NCBI GenBank assembly: GCA_903939115.1
Contig: CAJAFV010000071.1
Span: forward strand, 124,001 to 188,000
Source: an uncultured Geobacteraceae bacterium
GTDB taxonomy: Bacteria > Desulfobacterota > Desulfuromonadia > Geobacterales > Pseudopelobacteraceae
Length of the DNA stretch: 64,000 bases
Direction of reading: 5' to 3'
Part shown: piece by piece, positions 8,626-63,491 of the stretch
How the letters are laid out: the number at the start of each line of letters is the position of its first letter
Position numbering within the stretch: the first letter of the stretch is position 1
The notes under the pieces: generated by a model
What the model was told of the DNA's origin: nothing
The model's database searches: none
What the model saw: the letters and a program-made list of their open reading frames with translations, nothing else
Translations under genes and position numbers: made by a program

Positions 8626-10107
8626 TTACGGCAGTTCGCTGCTCCCCATCAAAAACCTGTCACACTCACGGGCCGCCCCGCGCCCCTCGTTAAAAGCCCA
8701 TACCACCAGACTCTGGCCGCGACGGCAGTCACCTGCGGCAAAGACACCCGGAATGCTGGTGCTGTACTTTTCGAACTCTGCTTTGATATTGCTGCGCGGG
8801 TCCCGTTCCAAACCGAGCGAATCGATCAAAGGTTGCTCCGGCCCGAGGAAGCCCATCGCCAGCAGCACCAACTGGGCGGAACGCACCTGCTCCGAACCCG
8901 GAACCGGCTGCGGCACAAACTGTCCCTTTTCATTTTTCTGCCACGCGACTTCAACGGTATGAACCGCCGTAACGGCCCCGTTTGCATCTCCCTCAAAGCT
9001 GGTCGCTGTTGTCAGGTAGACACGCGGATCAGCGCCAAATTTCGCCGCCGCCTCTTCCTGCCCATAATCCACTTTGTGGGTTTTAGGCCATTCCGGCCAG
9101 GGATTATCCGCCGCACGCTGGTCCGGAGAGCGGGGCATGATTTCCAGCTGAACGACACTTTTGCAGCCATGGCGGAGTGAAGTGCCGACACAGTCCGTAC
9201 CGGTATCTCCGCCACCGATGATGATAACATCCTTCCCTTTTGCGGAGATAAAATCATCATTCCCGCTCAACAGAGCCTTGGTGTTAGCAGTCAAAAACTC
9301 CATGGCGAAATGAATTCCGTTGAGGTCGCGACCTTTAATCGGCAGATCGCGCGGCAGGGTTGCCCCGGTCGTTACGACAACGGCATCAAAGTTGCTGCGC
9401 AGTTTTGCCGTTGGATAGGCATCCCCCCCTATTTCAGTATTACATACAAAGCTGATCCCCTCGGATTCCATCAGTTTGATGCGGCGCAGCAGGACCTCAC
9501 GCTTATCAAGTTTCATGTTGGGGATGCCGTACATCAGCAGACCGCCCGGCAGATCGGCCCGCTCGAAAACCGTTACACTGTGGCCGGCTTTGTTGAGTTG
9601 CGCAGCGGCGGAGAGACCGGCAGGACCGGAACCGACCACGGCAACTTTTTTGCCGGTGGAGATGGCGGGGATGGCGGGAGCGATCCACCCCTCTTCAAAG
9701 CCGCGTTCAACAATGCTGACTTCGATGTTTTTTATCGTCACTGCCGGATCGATCATGCCGAGTGTACAGGAACCCTCGCAGGGGGCCGGGCAGACCCGTC
9801 CGGTAAACTCGGGGAAATTATTGGTTTTAAGCAGTCGGTCAAGCGCCTGATGCCAATGATTGCGATAGATCAGGTCATTCCACTCCGGAATCAGATTGTT
9901 GATCGGACAACCGCTCGCCATGCCGCTGATCAGCACACCGCTGTGACAGAATGGCACGCCGCAATCCATACAACGGGCACCCTGACTGCGCAGAACTTCG
10001 TCCGGCATATGCAGATGAAACTCGTTCCAGTCGTTTATACGCTCAAGAGGCGCCCGGTCGGCCGGCACTTCGCGCTTATATTCCATGAATCCAGTTGTTT
10101 TTCCCAT
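8626..10107 (-). CDS. gltD: Glutamate synthase (NADPH) small subunit
   Basis: A 493-residue flavoprotein that feeds NADPH electrons to the large subunit GltB. The N-terminal ferredoxin-like cysteine region includes [10 protein letters not shown] and later CPAPCEGSC, expected to bind [4Fe-4S] clusters. FAD-binding [15 protein letters not shown] follows at about residue 155, then the NADPH-binding [13 protein letters not shown]. The C-terminal [18 protein letters not shown] completes the FAD site. The length matches the family. It lies downstream of gltB, separated by a 134-bp palindromic repeat spacer. Confidence 0.95.
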
Positions 10108-10130: not shown

Positions 10131-10240
10131 TCCCCTCTCCATAAGGGAGAGGGTTAGGGTGAGGGGAAAATGTTGGAACATTCAGTGCCGCCATCCCCTC
10201 ATCCGGCCTTCGGCCACCTTCTCCCACAGGGAGAAGGGTT
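10131..10240. repeat. Palindromic repeat element (REP/BIME-like) in the gltB-gltD spacer
   Basis: The spacer is almost filled by GC-rich foldbacks: CCCTCTCC-ATAA-GGGAGAGGG, then GGGTGAGGGG, and 30 bases later CCCCTCATCC, the GGCC-TTC-GGCC mini-hairpin and CTTCTCCC-ACA-GGGAGAAGG. The same two modules, in the other order, lie inside uvrB (62662-62770). On the reverse strand the 35-bp module from 10131-10165 differs from the uvrB copy at only two positions by eye. In the gltBD mRNA this could act as a stabiliser or partial terminator lowering gltD expression, which is inference. Confidence 0.85.
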
Positions 10241-10241
10241 A

Positions 10242-13200
10242 TCAATGCCCTCCGCTGTGTGAATTTTCCTCAAATGCCGCGGCAAGCGCATCATCACCGC
10301 TCAGTCCGGCCGCCTTTGCCCGTTCAAGGGCCTGCAGCACCCGCTTGTAATCCAGCGGCATGACCTTTACAAACTGATTAAGAACATTCTCCCAGTTGAT
10401 CAGCATCATCGTTGCCCGGGAGCTTCCGGTGCATTCGGCATGTTTTTCTATCATCGCTTTGACTATTGCAGCGTCAGAATTATCAAGCGCCTCCAGTTCG
10501 ACCAGTTCCGTATTGCATCGGGAAGCAAAATCGTTCTGTTCATCAAGTACATATGCAACACCGCCACTCATCCCGGCCGCAAAGTTGCGCCCGGTCTGGC
10601 CAAGAATTACCACGACCCCGCCGGTCATATACTCACAGCCATGATCGCCGATTCCCTCAACGACCGCGTTGGCGCCCGAGTTGCGGACACAGAAGCGTTC
10701 GCCTGCCATGCCGCGAATGTATGCAGTTCCACCCGTAGCGCCGTAGAAGGCAACATTGCCGGCGATGATGTTCTCTTCAGCCTTGAAGGTTGACCCGGCA
10801 GGCGGGTAGACAACGATTGAGCCGCCACTTAAGCCTTTACCCAGATAATCGTTCGCGTCGCCCGATAGTTTGAGGGTTATGCCGCACGGGATGAATGCCC
10901 CGAAGCTCTGGCCGGCAGAGCCGTTGAAGGTAAGACTGACCGTATCTTCGGGCAGTCCTTTGGCGCCATGATGACGGGTGATTTCGTTACCGAGAATTGT
11001 CCCGACTACGCGATCGACATTGGTAATCAGCAGCTCCGCGCTGACTTTTTCACCACGCTCGATGGCTGGCTGGCAAAGATCGAGAAGTTTGGTCATGTCG
11101 ATTGATTTCTCCAAGCCATGATCCTGCTGCTCCGTGTTGTAGCGCTCTACATTCAGCCCGACTTTCGGCTGATGCAGTATGTTTGAGAAATCCAGCCCCT
11201 GCGCTTTCCAGTGGTCAATCGCCTTGTTGGCCTCCAGCACATCGCAACGGCCGACCATTTCGTTCAGGGTGCGGAATCCGAGCAGTGCCATAATTTCGCG
11301 CAGCTCCTCCGCGACAAACCGCATGAAATTTACAACGTACTCCGGTTTCCCACTGAAATTTTTGCGCAGTTCAGGATCCTGCGTCGCCACACCGGTCGGG
11401 CAGGTATTGCTTTGGCAGACACGCATCATAACGCACCCCAGAGTTACAAGCGGAGCGGTGGCAAAACCGAACTCCTCGGCACCCAGCAGTGCGGCAATAG
11501 CGACATCGCGACCGGTCTTCAGCTGACCGTCAGCTTCAATGATGATGCGGCTCCGAAGATTGTTCAACAACAGCGTCTGATGCGTTTCAGCGAGGCCAAG
11601 CTCCCAGGGGAGGCCGGCATGTTTGATGCTGGAGATCGGCGATGCGCCGGTACCGCCATCGTAGCCGCTGATCAGAACGACGTCTGCGTGGGCTTTGGCA
11701 ACACCTGCGGCAATTGTGCCGACACCGACTTCAGACACCAGTTTGACGCTGATGCGGGCCCGGCGGTTGGCATTTTTAAGATCGTGGATCAGCTCGGCCA
11801 GATCCTCGATGGAGTAGATATCGTGGTGCGGTGGTGGCGACACCAGACCGACTCCAGGCGTCGTGTGACGGGTCTTGGCTATCCAGGGATAGACCTTGTG
11901 ACCCGGCAGTTCGCCCCCCTCACCAGGTATGGCACCCTGAGCCATCTTGATCTGCAGTTCACCGGCATTGGTCAGGTAATCACTGGTGACGCCGAAGCGT
12001 CCTGAAGCAACCTGCTTGATGACGCTGTTTTTTGAATCCCCCTGTTCGTTGGTCCAGGTGAAACGCTCCGGGTCCTCGCCACCTTCACCGGTGTTGGATC
12101 TTCCCCCGATGCGGTTCATGGCGATAGCCAGAGCCTCGTGGGCTTCTTTACTGATTGAACCGTAGGACATGGCCCCGGTCTTGAAACGCTTCATGATGCC
12201 TTCAACCGGCTCGACCTCATCAAGCGGCACGGAAGGCATATTGTCCTTAAAGTTAAGGAGGCCCCGCAGCGTATAATGACGGGTACTCTGGTCGTCAATT
12301 AATGAGGAAAAGACTTTGAACTCACGATAATCGTCAGTACGGACCGCTTTCTGGAGTGAGGTAATCGTCAGCGGGTTGTACTGATGCTCTTCGCCGTCTT
12401 TGCGCCACTGATAGACCCCGCCCGGCGCAAGCGTCACTTCTGCGGCTACCCGCGAAGGATAGGCACGTGCGTGACGTTCCATCAGCTCACGGGCGATTCC
12501 GTCAATGTCGGTACCGCCGATGCGTGATGGTGTCCAGGTGAAATAGCGGTCAACGACTGACTGATGCAGGCCAAGCGCCTCGAAAATCTGGGCGCCGCGA
12601 TAACTCTGAACAGTGGAAATCCCCATCTTGGCCATGGTTTTAACGACACCCTTGATTGCTGCCTTGATGAAGTTTTTAACCGCTTGCTTGTGATCAATAT
12701 CCGTCAGAAGTCCTTGAAGAATCATGTCATCCAGAGATTCAAAAGCCAGATACGGGTTAATGGCATTGACACCGTACCCGAGCAGCACGGCAAAATGGTG
12801 CACTTCGCGCGGTTCCCCCGATTCCAGGATCAGTGAAACCAGCGTGCGGGTACCACTATTTACCAGGTGGTGATGCAGGCCGGAAACGGCAAGAAGCGCC
12901 GGAACAGCGGCATTGTTCTGGTCTACGCCGCGATCAGAAAGCACGAGGATGTTGCTGCCGGCTTCAACCGCCACGTCGGCTGCCGCAAAAAGCGCCTCCA
13001 ACCCCCTCTCCATGCCTGCTGCACCTCGCGTCACAGGAAAGAGAAGCGATAACGTTGCCGCTTTGAATCCCGGGCTGTCAATCTGACGCAGTTTTTCCAG
13101 CTCCTGGTTGCAGAGAAGCGGATTCTGGAGTTTGATCCTCCGGGCGTTGCTTGCAGTCGGCTCCAGCAGGTTACCTTCTGAACCGATCAGCGTGATGGTC

Positions 13201-14822
13201 GAGGTGACTATCTCTTCACGAATCGGGTCGATGGGAGGATTCGTGACTTGGGCGAACAGCTGCTTGAAATAATTATATAACAGCTGATTCTGGTTCGAGA
13301 GAACTGCCAGAGGGGTATCGGTGCCCATAGAGCCGAGCGGCTGAATGCCGTCTCGCGCCATCGGCCCCAGGACGACGCGCTGATCCTCGAACGTGTAGCC
13401 AAAGGCCTGCTGACGCTGGGTCAGAGTGCTCTGGTCGGGGAGCGGCATGTCGGACGTGTACGGCAGATCCTCCAACAGAATATAGTTCTCTTTCAGCCAC
13501 TGGCCGTACGGGTTGGCAGCCGCCAGCTCCTGCTTGATCTCTTCGTCCGGAACTATGCGTCCCTGCTCGGTGTCCACCAGGAACATCTGCCCCGGCTGGA
13601 GTCGCCCCTTGCGCAGGATGCGCTCCGGCTCGATCTGCAGAACGCCGGCCTCTGATGCCATAATGACCAGATCATCAGTGGTAATGTAATACCGTGAAGG
13701 GCGCAGGCCGTTGCGGTCAAGAACCGCTCCGATACTACGGCCATCAGTAAAGGCGATTGCAGCAGGCCCATCCCACGGTGCAATCAGGCAGGAGTGGTAT
13801 TCATAAAAAGCCCGCTTCGCTTCGCTCATGGTGGCGTGGTTTTCCCATGGCTCCGGTACCATCATCATGATGGCGTGCGGCAGAGAGCGGCCGCTCATAA
13901 CGAGCAGTTCCAGGCAGTTATCGAACATGCCTGAATCAGAGCCGTTTGTATTGATTATCGGTAAAACCTTCTTGATGTCATCGCCGAACAGCTCGCTGGT
14001 AATATGATTCTGGCGGGCATTCATCCAGTTGACGTTGCCGCGCAGCGTATTGATTTCGCCGTTATGTGCGAGGTAATGGTACGGGTGGGCGCGGTCCCAG
14101 CTGGGAAAGGTATTGGTGGAGAAGCGGGAATGAACCAGGGCAATCGCGCTTTCCACTGTGGTGTCACGCAGCTCTGGAAAGTACTGGTCTACCTGCACCG
14201 GCATGAGCATGCCTTTGTAGATTATCGTTCTGGTGGAGAGACTGCAGACATACCAGTGTTCGTCAACGGCGGCACGCCTGATCTCGTTGGTTGCCCGCTG
14301 ATTAATGATATAGAGCTTGCGATTGAAGGCCTGCTCGTCAACGCAGTCAAGCGGACGCTTGAGGAACAGCTGTCGCACCATAGGCTCCCCTTCCCATGCG
14401 GTATTGCCCAGAGAAGAGTTGTCGGTCGGCACATTGCGCCAGCCGAGCAGTTCCACGCCTTCATCAACCAGTATTTTTTCCAGAATATGCCGGGCGGCGT
14501 TACGTTCGGTCGCTTTTGGCGAGGTAAAAAGCATCCCGACACCGTAGTGGTACGGCTCTGGCAGTACAATGCCAAGAGGTGCGCAGACCGAACGAAGGAA
14601 GCTGTCAGGCATCTGCAAGAGAATTCCGGCACCGTCTCCGGTATTCGGTTCGCATCCACAGGCACCGCGATGATCAAGATTGACAAGAATCTCAAGAGCC
14701 TGGCTGACTATCTCATGGGACTTCTTGCCTTTAATGTTTACAACAAATCCGACGCCGCAGGCATCATGTTCGAATTGCGGATCGTAAAGTCCCTGCTTTG
14801 CTGGTGGCTGGTTGTTTTTCAT
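10242..14822 (-). CDS. gltB: Glutamate synthase (NADPH) large subunit
   Basis: A 1526-residue enzyme that converts glutamine and 2-oxoglutarate to two glutamates. The glutaminase cysteine is Cys22 in [10 protein letters not shown]; the preceding 21 residues are the expected propeptide. Glutaminase is about 22-430, the central domain about 470-770, the FMN/synthase domain about 830-1200, with the [3Fe-4S] cysteines in [17 protein letters not shown], and the C-terminal GXG-rich beta-helix from about 1270. The length is normal. A sigma-54-type promoter lies 77-92 bp upstream, suggesting nitrogen control. gltD follows after the repeat spacer. Confidence 0.97.
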
Positions 14823-40175: not shown

Positions 40176-40243
40176 GTCAAAGAGTGACGCTGTTATCTAG
40201 AACCAAAGAGAACCAAAGAGAGGACAAAGAGGGACGTTGTTTG
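40176..40243. repeat. REP-like repeats upstream of the RAYT gene
   Basis: One degenerate copy (GTCAAAGAGTGACGCTGTT, 40176-40194) and one closer copy (40222-40243, GGACAAAGAGGGACGTTG then TTTG). The latter is nearly the reverse complement of the two copies behind the gene (41281-41332). Between them is a tandem AACCAAAGAG (40201-40220). Confidence 0.7.
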
Positions 40244-40289
40244 CTCTTTTGCTATTGACTCATCTTCTCCTTATTGATACTGTCCAGTC

Positions 40290-41279
40290 ATGCCACGTTT
40301 AGCAAGACTTGACATATCCGGTCTCCTCCAGCACGTTATCGTACGCGGGATTGAACGTCGCGATATTTTCAATGACGATAACGACAGGCAGCTATTTATC
40401 GACCGCTTCTCCAAACTTCTCTCTGAAACAGGCATTCAGTGTTATGCTTGGGCGCTTTTATCCAATCATTTTCACCTGTTATTAATGCCAAAATCCACCC
40501 CCCTGTCATACTTCATGCGCAGGCTCCTTACCGGATATGCACTATCATTTAACCGACGTAACAAACGCTCCGGCCATTTATTCCAAAATCGGTACAAATC
40601 AATAGTCTGCGAAGAGGAACCTTATCTGCTTGAGCTAGTCAGATACATTCACCTGAATCCGCTGCGAGCAGGAATGGTCGCAAACCTGGATGAACTTGAT
40701 AATTATAAATGGACTGGGCATGCCGTGCTGATGGGCAAAATAACGATTGAAACACAGAATACGACTGCCATCCTTGAGCGCTTTGGTGCTACTACCGGTC
40801 AAGCACGATTGAATTATCGTCAATTTATCTCTGATGGAATTTCGGCTGGCAATCGTGATGATCTTGTCGGTGGTGGCCTTAAACGCAGTCAGGGAGAACG
40901 ACCTGCCAACGAATATGAAAGCTACGATGAGCGGATTCTGGGGTGTGGCGATTTCGTTGATAGTATGAAATTGGATTCCGATCTGCGTGATAAGATGAAA
41001 AGCGCCATAACTCTTGAGAAACTCTTGAATATTGTCTCCAACGTAATGAATCTCGATTCTGATTCCGTGAGAAGACCCAGTAAAAGCCGATTTCCGGCGA
41101 CTGCTCGCGGAATAATATGCCAAATGGCAATATTTGAACTTGGTTACACAGGAAAAGAGGTCGGTTCACTCCTACACCTTAAAGCAAGTGGTGTCAGCCT
41201 GGCATCAAGGCGCGGCGAGAAGGCACTAAAGGCGGATCCAGAACTATTAAAAAGCATTTTGCTTGAAATATCAAAATAA
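40290..41279 (+). CDS. REP-associated tyrosine transposase (RAYT, Y1_Tnp family)
   Basis: A 329-residue protein. The Y1 transposase core has MPRLARLDISGLLQHVIVRG at the start, the metal-binding HFHLL (SNHFHLLLMPK), and a candidate catalytic Tyr in the LLTGYALSFNRR helix. A C-terminal ~70-residue domain resembles a DnaA-type helix-turn-helix (TARGIICQMAIFELGYTGKEVG region), common in deltaproteobacterial RAYTs. It carries no downstream cargo. The flanking inverted REP-like repeats support a RAYT-REP unit. It sits between prepilin genes, with no clear ribosome site. Confidence 0.88.
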   Translation: MPRLARLDISGLLQHVIVRGIERRDIFNDDNDRQLFIDRFSKLLSETGIQCYAWALLSNHFHLLLMPKSTPLSYFMRRLLTGYALSFNRRNKRSGHLFQNRYKSIVCEEEPYLLELVRYIHLNPLRAGMVANLDELDNYKWTGHAVLMGKITIETQNTTAILERFGATTGQARLNYRQFISDGISAGNRDDLVGGGLKRSQGERPANEYESYDERILGCGDFVDSMKLDSDLRDKMKSAITLEKLLNIVSNVMNLDSDSVRRPSKSRFPATARGIICQMAIFELGYTGKEVGSLLHLKASGVSLASRRGEKALKADPELLKSILLEISK

Positions 41280-41280
41280 C

Positions 41281-41332
41281 AAACAACGTCCCTCTTGTCC
41301 CAAAAATAACAAACAACGTCCTTCTTGTCCCA
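41281..41332. repeat. Two tandem REP-like repeats downstream of the RAYT gene
   Basis: A 22-bp unit (CAAACAACGTCCCTCTTG then TCCC) is repeated once at a 30-bp period with one base change (CCCTC to CCTTC). The unit is nearly the reverse complement of 40222-40243. The first copy starts two bases after the transposase stop. Confidence 0.85.
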
Positions 41333-41387
41333 CTCTTTTCCCAATAGCTCCCTTTGTTTATCTCGCTTATTGTGGTATTAAATCTCC

Positions 41388-61373: not shown

Positions 61374-63491
61374 ATGTCCCTTTTCAATATAACAACCGAA
61401 TATACACCGCGCGGCGATCAACCACTGGCCATCAAAGAGCTGGTCGAGGGGATCGAGCGCGGTGACCGCCACCAGACGCTACTCGGGGTAACCGGATCCG
61501 GCAAGACATTCACTGTTGCCAATGTCATAGCCCAGACTTCGCGGCCAGCCTTGGTACTGGCTCCCAACAAGACGCTGGCGGCCCAGCTCTATGGCGAATT
61601 CAAGGAGCTTTTCCCGGATAACGCCGTTGAATACTTTGTCTCATACTACGATTATTACCAGCCTGAAGCCTACATTCCGACCAGCGATACCTTTATTGAA
61701 AAAGATTCTGCCATCAACGACGAAATAGACAAGATGCGCCATTCAGCGACGCGCAGTCTGCTGACACGGCGTGATGTCATTATTGTGGCTTCGGTCTCCT
61801 GTATTTACGGTATCGGTTCACCCGATGCGTATCAGTCGATGCACATTTTCTTCCATCAAGGGGATGATTACGGACGTGACGAACTTCTCAAAAAACTGAT
61901 CGAGATTCAGTATGAGCGTAATGACATGGATTTCCATCGTGGCACGTTCCGGGTGCGTGGGGATGTGATCGAAATTTTCCCGGCCTATGATAATGATCGT
62001 GCGCTCAGAATAGAATTTTTTGGTGACGAAGTTGAAGCCATTAGCGAAATAGATCCGCTGCGCGGCGCGGTGCTGCAGAAACTATCGAAATGCTCCATCT
62101 ATCCGGCCTCCCATTACGTTTCCACCCGTGAAACACTGGAACGTGCGGTTGAGCAGATCCGCGTCGATCTGGCTGAGCGGATCTCTTATTTCCGTTCACA
62201 AAACATGCTGCTGGAAGAACAGCGCATCGAGCAGCGAACCTTCTACGATATAGAGATGATGGAGGAGATGGGGTTCTGTCACGGCATCGAAAATTATTCG
62301 CGCTATTTCGATGGCCGTCAACCGGGGGAGGCGCCGTATACACTGATTGATTACTTCCCGGATGACTTTGTTCTGTTCGTCGATGAATCGCATATCACCA
62401 TTCCTCAGACCGGTGCCATGTACCGTGGTGACCGTTCGCGTAAAGAAACGCTGGTCAACTATGGCTTCCGTCTGCCAGCTGCGCTCGACAACCGGCCGCT
62501 CAATTTCCAGGAGTTCCAGACTCGTATCCGCCAGGCCGTCTATGTTTCGGCGACTCCCGCCGATTATGAACTTGAGGCGAGTGGCGGTGTTTTTGTCGAG
62601 CAGGTTATACGCCCGACCGGGCTGGTTGATCCGGTTATAGAGGTGCGGCCGGTGACGGCATCCCCTCACCCTAGCCCTCTCCCTAATGGAGAGGGGACAG
62701 AAGAATCCCTCGCCCTTAGGACCCAAAAGGCGGGCCTAAAGGAGAGGGTGGCCGAAGGCCGGGTGAGGGGACATTTTGGCCAGGTCGACGACCTCCTCCA
62801 TGAAGTGCGTGAAACCGTGGCCCGCGGTGAGCGTGTGCTGGTGACGACCTTAACCAAGCGAATGGCCGAAGAGTTGACCAACTATTATCGTGAACTGGGG
62901 GTACGGATAAAATACCTCCATTCAGACATTGTTACCATCGAGCGGATGCAGATCATTCGGGACCTCCGCATGGGGGAATTCGACGTGCTGGTCGGGATTA
63001 ACCTGCTGCGGGAGGGGCTTGATCTGCCGGAGGTTTCTCTGGTCGCCATTCTTGACGCCGACAAGGAGGGATTTCTCCGTTCCCAGCGTTCCCTGATCCA
63101 GACCTGCGGCCGTGCCGCCCGTAATATCAATGGCCGGGTGCTGATGTACGGTGACAACATCACCCGCTCCATGCAGGCCTGTATCGATGAGACCGGCCGC
63201 CGCAGGGTTAAGCAGCTTGAGTATAACGAAGAACACGGCATAACTCCCGAAACAGTGAAGAAGGGGTTGCGGAGCATTCTGGAGTCGATCGAGGAGAAGG
63301 ATTATGTCACGCAACCGGCAGGAGTGGCCGAAGCGGGCGAAGAATATCTGGCGCCAAAAGAGATTCCAAAACTGGTGAAGAAGCTCCGGAAAGAGATGCT
63401 GGCGGCAGCCAAGGATTTGAATTTTGAGAAAGCGGCAGTTTTGCGCGACCGGGTGAAAAAACTCGAAACGTTAGAACTGGCGCTGCGATGA
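61374..63491 (+). CDS. uvrB: Excinuclease ABC subunit B with in-frame repeat insertion
   Basis: A 705-residue UvrB (family about 660-670). It has Walker A GVTGSGKT (38-45), the damage-probing beta-hairpin ([11 protein letters not shown], from about 92), IEVRPV near residue 422-427, [13 protein letters not shown], the helicase motifs ([21 protein letters not shown]) and a C-terminal UVR domain. About 40 residues (about 429-469) rich in Pro, Gly and charged residues are inserted between IEVRPVT and QVDDLL. They are encoded by a palindromic repeat element (62662-62770). The insertion is in frame and contains no stop. Partner of UvrA/UvrC in nucleotide excision repair. Confidence 0.96.
62662..62770. 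repeat. Palindromic repeat element inside uvrB
   Basis: A 109-bp foldback bounded by CCCCTCACCC (62662-62671) and GGGTGAGGGG (62761-62770), with an inner CCCTCTCC-CTAAT-GGAGAGGGG hairpin and a GGCC-GAA-GGCC mini-hairpin. The modules also occur in the gltB-gltD spacer (10131-10240). It is translated as part of UvrB. Confidence 0.9.

Follow-up and report, generated by a model that had tools for sequence, protein, structure and literature searches.

An in-frame palindromic repeat in uvrB of an uncultured Geobacteraceae bacterium, at a site that holds other repeats in related genomes

The uvrB gene described here raises the question of how a conserved protein comes to carry some 40 residues encoded by a palindromic repeat, and whether the site that holds them has held other repeats. 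The gene lies in a stretch of 64,000 nucleotides from an uncultured Geobacteraceae bacterium (assembly GCA_903939115.1, contig CAJAFV010000071.1, positions 124,001 to 188,000 of the forward strand), which we call the window and whose own positions are used below. A sequence-only reading of this DNA had proposed that a foldback element was inserted in frame into uvrB and translated. The features concerned are as follows.

61374..63491, plus strand: uvrB, 705 aa, a single intact frame through the insert (ORF, NCBIfam, alignment)
62658..62777, plus strand: in-frame insert of 40 residues (429-468) without counterpart in 31 aligned UvrBs
62661..62771, no strand assigned: palindromic element of 111 bp, inverted end to inverted end (repeat match, fold)
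62661..62671, plus strand: left inverted end, TCCCCTCACCC
62761..62771, plus strand: right inverted end, GGGTGAGGGGA
62675..62695, plus strand: inner hairpin with an 8-bp stem (predicted single-strand fold)
10131..10224, minus strand: second window copy of the family, in the gltB-gltD spacer

The uvrB product matches two NCBIfam UvrB equivalog profiles, and when it was aligned with 31 other UvrBs drawn from 80 bacteria-wide loci, the only residues peculiar to the window protein were 429-468 and the last residue, 705. The proposed addition of about 40 residues at 62658..62777 is thus exact. The frame is kept without a stop, also as proposed: only the used frame of the insert is open, and the other five hold one to three stops each. 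Open in-frame insertion is not the default outcome for such DNA, because just 29 of the 108 frames of 18 other copies lack a stop, and only 5 of the 18 have a matched length that is a multiple of three. The insert point corresponds to the junction between residues 428 and 429 of the solved UvrB 9gy7 and between 427 and 429 of 2fdc, and in an AlphaFold model of window UvrB alone (mean pLDDT 83.9) it falls after a predicted strand (421-425) and before a predicted helix (468-483), with residues 429-467 below 50, so that the insert is predicted to form a disordered loop. Elsewhere in the protein, 159 of the 160 columns invariant among the 31 other UvrBs are retained, and dN/dS outside the loop is 0.012-0.117 over eight pairs, including 0.017 for the window genome (G000) against its sister G008, so that purifying selection on the rest of the gene is strong. 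Judged by these substitutions, window UvrB looks functional despite the insert, and from selection and the model together we infer that the protein tolerates it.

The inserted DNA is indeed a palindrome, although the size first given for it, 109 bp, falls short of the 111 bp measured across the inverted repeats. Its ends, TCCCCTCACCC and GGGTGAGGGGA, are 11-bp perfect inverted repeats, and its single-strand DNA fold (-33.9 kcal/mol, z -4.3) was equalled by none of 200 shuffles. The copy that had been noticed in the gltB-gltD spacer is present at 10131-10224, flanked by gltD (8626-10107) and gltB (10242-14822); it and the uvrB copy match as two halves, at 94-95%, and differ between the halves. 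Across the whole genome the window-type repeat gave 57 BLAST matches, merging into 37 places (35 fetched stretches and the two in the window), which is a lower bound, as scoring covered 40 of the 48 first-look candidates and some copies are situated at the ends of contigs. At five of the 37 places the copy is clearly internal to a recognised gene and in frame (uvrB, uvrA, rlmN, purL and cobB), and the rest are intergenic, at gene ends or within short frames. The expectation that copies would be found genome-wide, inside genes as well, was therefore borne out, with at least 37 places and in-frame copies in four genes besides uvrB. At four loci of the window genome (L148, L154, L168 and L171) the repeat lies at or just before apparent gene N-termini, where it may form untranslated leaders or N-terminal extensions.

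We compared the site across genomes by the length of its loop, defined as the stretch between RPTGLxDP and QVDDL in UvrB. The loop is 9 aa long in all 73 outsiders parsed, namely 62 from the bacteria-wide set of 80 and all 11 order relatives, and these proteins lack the 40 residues, as the earlier reading had anticipated for related UvrBs. Seven of the unparsed bacteria-wide loci are without an insert by eye, as are 10 of the 11 others, the remaining one not having been viewed, and UvrB match lengths in families f3 and f4 of the same order fit a 9-aa loop among the matches listed. The genus of the window genome was sampled with 39 genomes, 38 of which gave a UvrB match and 37 a parsed loop (the window included). 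Every one of these 37 loops is longer than that of the outsiders, at 14-61 aa, and 14 reach at least 22 aa. In 14 of the 37 the site is occupied by palindromes, which belong to several families, or by what decay has left of them, and the other 23 have a short extension above the 9-aa norm. Because genus loops exceed 9 aa even where no repeat remains (14-16 aa), the site had been altered before the present element arrived. Related genera show the same mixture of palindromes, remnants and short extensions. In family f2 of the same order the loops are 20-27 aa in 4 of 4, and in other f1 genera 18 of 20 fetched stretches, chosen partly for odd length, were parsed and gave loops of 12-68 aa; six more f1 genomes (G111, G124, G125, G134, G135 and G136) look to have 9 aa, as judged by match length. 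Over f1 and f2 together, 25 of 59 parsed rows have loops of at least 22 aa; for 17 of these 25 the inverted arms were reached by at most 7 of 200 shuffles, and the other eight were unremarkable.

The occupants are not all of one kind (types and scars were assigned by eye, and the genomes compared come from separate species and are in many cases fragmented drafts). The window type is found in the window genome, in G018 and, with two elements combined, in G108; a type ended by AAATCCCCC...GGGGGATTT in G013, G105, G106, G122 and G123; and a CCCTCCCCC...GGGGGAGAG type in G008, G024, G012 and G058 and, decayed, in G019. Single other types are held by G010, G032 and G037 (17-bp stem). The copy-number searches, which covered the window, G013 and G008 types, found all three families to be multicopy: the window type has its 57 matches in its own genome, the G013 type 36 in G013, and the G008 type 9 in G008, 34 in G024 and 35 in G012. 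For each tested occupant, dispersed copies thus exist in the same genome or in that of a sister, with many matches at 78-97%. The loop of G108 (L351), 68 aa in total and in frame, seemingly combines two palindromic elements.

On a UvrB tree built without the loop, in which 18 of 61 inner branches are drawn open and no single branch sets off the outgroup, G008 is the sister of the window genome (support 98/87), and the two form a 100/100 clade with G024 and with G031, whose 16-aa loop we read as a scar. The occupants of G008 and G024 are one family, 95% identical, and that of the window genome is 43-53% identical to theirs, at a UvrB dN of about 0.01 between the genomes. Occupant labels required 23 changes on the tree against a shuffled mean of 25.7, a number as low being reached in 6 of 200 shuffles, and they therefore carry little history, which points to fast turnover. 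At least one gain nevertheless looks old, because G013, G105 and G123, which belong to three genera, share an alignable middle between the hairpins (24/34 and 19/34 identical in two pairs, reached by none of 10000 shuffles, and 15/34 in the third, reached by 167 of 10000). In G008, outer GGCAAAT...ATTT ends of the G013 type enclose the core of another family, and G029 and G059 retain only GGGGGGATTTCCGT(C/T)GGC, the 3' end of an element that is whole in G105. These mixed ends and end remnants suggest that a resident element has repeatedly undergone exchange and deletion.

Synonymous differences, given as insert against uvrB flank, were 3/31 against 47% for G008-G024, 7.5/30 against 63% for G008-G012, 8.5/29.8 against 62% for G024-G012, 5.5/34.5 against 48% for G105-G123, 11.7/33.5 against 52% for G013-G105, 9.2/34 against 57% for G013-G123 and 4/16.8 against 32% for G011-G025 (P 0.34). 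The insert is thus below the flank at synonymous sites in six of the seven pairs at P<=0.05, which is not what free neutral drift after one old gain predicts. The near flanks of the G008-G024 pair show nothing unusual (84-85%, where the loop has 95%), and a long tract of recombination is therefore not the reason. The low divergence of the inserts could stem from constraint, from homogenisation with other copies or from recent arrival.

We consider it likely that the window insert represents a palindromic element that is translated and fills a slot long in use in UvrB, the occupants of which have been exchanged, partly deleted and kept in frame. A first element would have entered the UvrB loop before the split of these genera, and the short extensions would be scars of lost elements. 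If the loop is irrelevant to folding, in-frame occupants would be tolerated as a disordered excursion; later, they would be swapped for other repeat families or partly deleted, with selection retaining in-frame outcomes only. Old ends around a new core would imply that exchange probably proceeds through recombination or through insertion into the resident palindrome. The present occupant of the window lineage most likely arrived after the split from the sister, which holds another family. Against exchange stands the fact that no swap was seen between close strains, all of the compared genomes being separate species. G000 is without the GGCAAAT end, so that its swap was no clean core exchange, and a genomic copy in G012 (L244) with a similar AAAAT left flank makes the argument from the chimaera weaker.

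Much of the same evidence would be expected if the site were an insertion hotspot, a permissive or preferred target into which whole elements have transposed separately, with losses in between and no exchange within a resident. That one site holds unrelated families, that their labels are nearly unclustered on the UvrB tree, that repeat-free 27-nt loops occur in many species between occupied ones and that inserts look younger at synonymous sites than the species splits all fit separate arrivals. We hold this to be possible but rather unlikely, as the outer ends of one family surround the core of another and the alignable middles in three genera point to a single old gain of that family. No target-site duplication was obvious by eye in the flanks of 13 copies, and no UvrB-type element was found beside a transposase at the 13 of 34 matches inspected (the window match and 12 other loci), in a search for tyrosine Y1_Tnp transposases only. 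The window match is a Y1 transposase gene of 329 aa at 40290-41279, with an imperfect inverted repeat at 40215-40250 / 41303-41338 (36 nt, 81%), that sits between two genes whose N-termini look pilin-like to the eye; its neighbourhood had no UvrB-type element.

Other proteins also have loops that are occupied by palindromes. In surveys of 30 loci each, with inserts classed by eye, 29 could be parsed for UvrA, 13 for Mfd, 21 for RNase R, 27 for RlmN and 28 for PurL. UvrA has palindromes at the same site in 9 of 29 genomes, of three types, one of which, present in seven relatives, starts GTAGGGGC; the window genome has an in-frame copy of its own family in this loop (L170 1773-1803), which holds other types in relatives. 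Same-site occupation is clear in 4 of 13 Mfd proteins and partial in one more, and was found in 6 of 21 RNase R proteins, 4 of 27 RlmN proteins and 2 of 28 PurL proteins, the last two with one type each. In-frame copies in further genes were also found in G024, G012, G010 and G008, and those in HypF, RNase R, polA and mfd lie at matching places in two species each. In all, 17 distinct genes have clear internal inserts. Four serve nucleotide excision repair (uvrB, uvrA, mfd and polA), and the others are rlmN, purL, cobB, a hybrid histidine kinase, hypF, RNase R, nuoL, murB, an AMP-binding enzyme, a ketoacyl synthase, an N6/N4 methylase, a FabA-like protein and the L229 protein, which has no NCBIfam match. 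This count leaves out N-terminal copies and copies between fused frames (L148, L154, L168, L171, L217, L395, L401 and L404), as well as short or spurious-looking spanning frames and opposite-strand frames of the same copies. Without uvrB the repair share is 3/16, with P 1.5e-6 to 9.7e-4 on three assumed, not measured, backgrounds; the sample is small, only conserved genes are recognisable in it, and the repair category had been named earlier (PMC3733652). The frequency of occupation in RNase R is close to that in Mfd (6/21 against 4-5/13), which speaks against a repair-only rule. For these reasons, small sample and RNase R, we rejected a special role of repair genes as an established fact.

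These observations bear on whether the insert has been selected, its peptide or its hairpin (in DNA or mRNA) being useful to UvrB or to its expression. Synonymous divergence below that of the flanks in six of seven pairs (P<=0.05) would fit such use, and so would the recurrence of DNA-repair genes as targets, reported for REPs of other bacteria in PMC3733652. We think it improbable, given that sequence, length and family vary by species, that many species have a short extension only, that the non-repair RNase R gene is occupied about as often as mfd and that homogenisation or recent gain accounts equally for the low divergence. A broader conjecture, to which we give similarly low credence, is that certain loops of conserved proteins, chiefly those of nucleotide excision repair (UvrB, UvrA, Mfd and DNA polymerase I), serve as docking slots that are maintained for palindromic DNA, which would be kept, exchanged and constrained at the nucleotide level, either because the hairpin within the repair gene feeds back on repair or on the expression of these genes or because repair proteins help to move the elements.

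It is very doubtful that one ancestral insert diverged by mutation into apparent families, as has been argued for Rickettsia RPE-4, -6 and -7. Every parsed genus member has a loop longer than those of outsiders, and some ends are common to several families, both of which a single old insert would account for, but the three tested occupants each have dispersed counterparts in the same or a sister genome, of which many match at 78-97%, and sisters at a UvrB dN of about 0.01 hold occupants just 43-53% identical. The multicopy occupants and the labels on the tree led us to reject divergence of a single insert as a full explanation. That the repeat was mis-assembled, or that uvrB has decayed, is scarcely credible even in a draft of 99 contigs with some repeat copies at contig ends, since the insert lies well within a 215-kb contig, two independent genomes, G018 and G108, have related in-frame occupants at this site, and the invariant residues (159 of 160) and dN/dS (0.017) have been maintained; we rejected a pseudogene or artefact on these grounds.

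The likeness to Rickettsia palindromic elements (RPEs) suggested by the first reading holds in that the element is a multicopy palindrome found in frame within several unrelated conserved genes, here in a loop predicted to be exposed. According to PMC3767692, RPEs are short multicopy palindromes in frame in conserved housekeeping genes, in solvent-exposed parts of the proteins. In window UvrB the encoded stretch is exposed and the fold intact in prediction only (pLDDT <50 at 429-467), and the window element occurs in other bacteria and is likened to RPEs by description. Two findings extend or oppose the first reading: the genus loops are already long without a repeat, and several unrelated families share the site. 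The same source describes different RPE groups in orthologues of one gene, with excinuclease subunit C among the genes, and for the RPE-4/-6/-7 loci its authors favour one common diverged insert while keeping hotspots possible. The UvrB site differs from those loci in that it is shared, in several genera, by unrelated families (three shown to be multicopy), and in its scars and apparent chimaera. Whether palindromes at one gene site diverged from a single insert or arrived separately is a question that PMC3767692 leaves open for Rickettsia, and because the occupants here are unrelated, three families are multicopy and sisters differ, it becomes testable through close strains.

REPs tagged with GTAG or CGTC are reported in PMC3733652 to lie in frame in uvrA, R. 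conorii uvrB, polA, recBCD and others; its authors doubt that repair genes are accidental targets, and they describe REPs in genes of the same category at different sites, except in recB of two Xanthomonas. The window element differs in having neither tag at its ends, TCCCCTCACCC and GGGTGAGGGGA, whereas the UvrA type of seven relatives does start with GTAGGGGC. Multicopy sequences inside genes have been noted in G. bemidjiensis, and another in G. metallireducens (PMC2996986, PMC2700814); we compared them by description, and no exchange at one site is described in the accessible parts of those reports. MITEs and RPEs are reviewed in PMC10969869 and PMC2229807, the first of which describes Chunjie, a MITE of Geobacter uraniireducens with full copies of 178-235 bp. 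Like Chunjie and other MITEs, the window element is small and dispersed and has terminal inverted repeats, its 11-bp perfect ends, but on this comparison by description it measures 111 bp. Earlier publications, then, already cover repeats in frame within genes of Geobacter, repair genes containing REPs and differing RPE groups per gene; what is new is that unrelated multicopy families have been exchanged at a single codon site in several genera, together with scars and an apparent chimaera. We found no account of unrelated repeat families exchanged at one UvrB site in the accessible parts of the open-licence literature.

With other repeats or short scars in relatives at the identical position, the UvrB loop appears to have long served as a parking place for palindromic elements. 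UvrB, UvrA, Mfd and RNase R form a natural variant series of where proteins accept long foreign loops, and the same series shows how non-coding repeats turn into protein. In RlmN, a repeat-derived insert (L165 1362-2567) is common to the window genome, G028, G016 and G009, and many further species of the genus have a long acidic loop there. In-frame palindromes in polA (L232, L403) and mfd (L237, L402) lie at matching places in G024 and G008. A 28-residue palindrome-derived peptide in the hybrid histidine kinase is identical in the window genome and G024 (L406 1389-1470, L228 962-1042), despite a dS of 0.77 between the uvrB genes of these two genomes.
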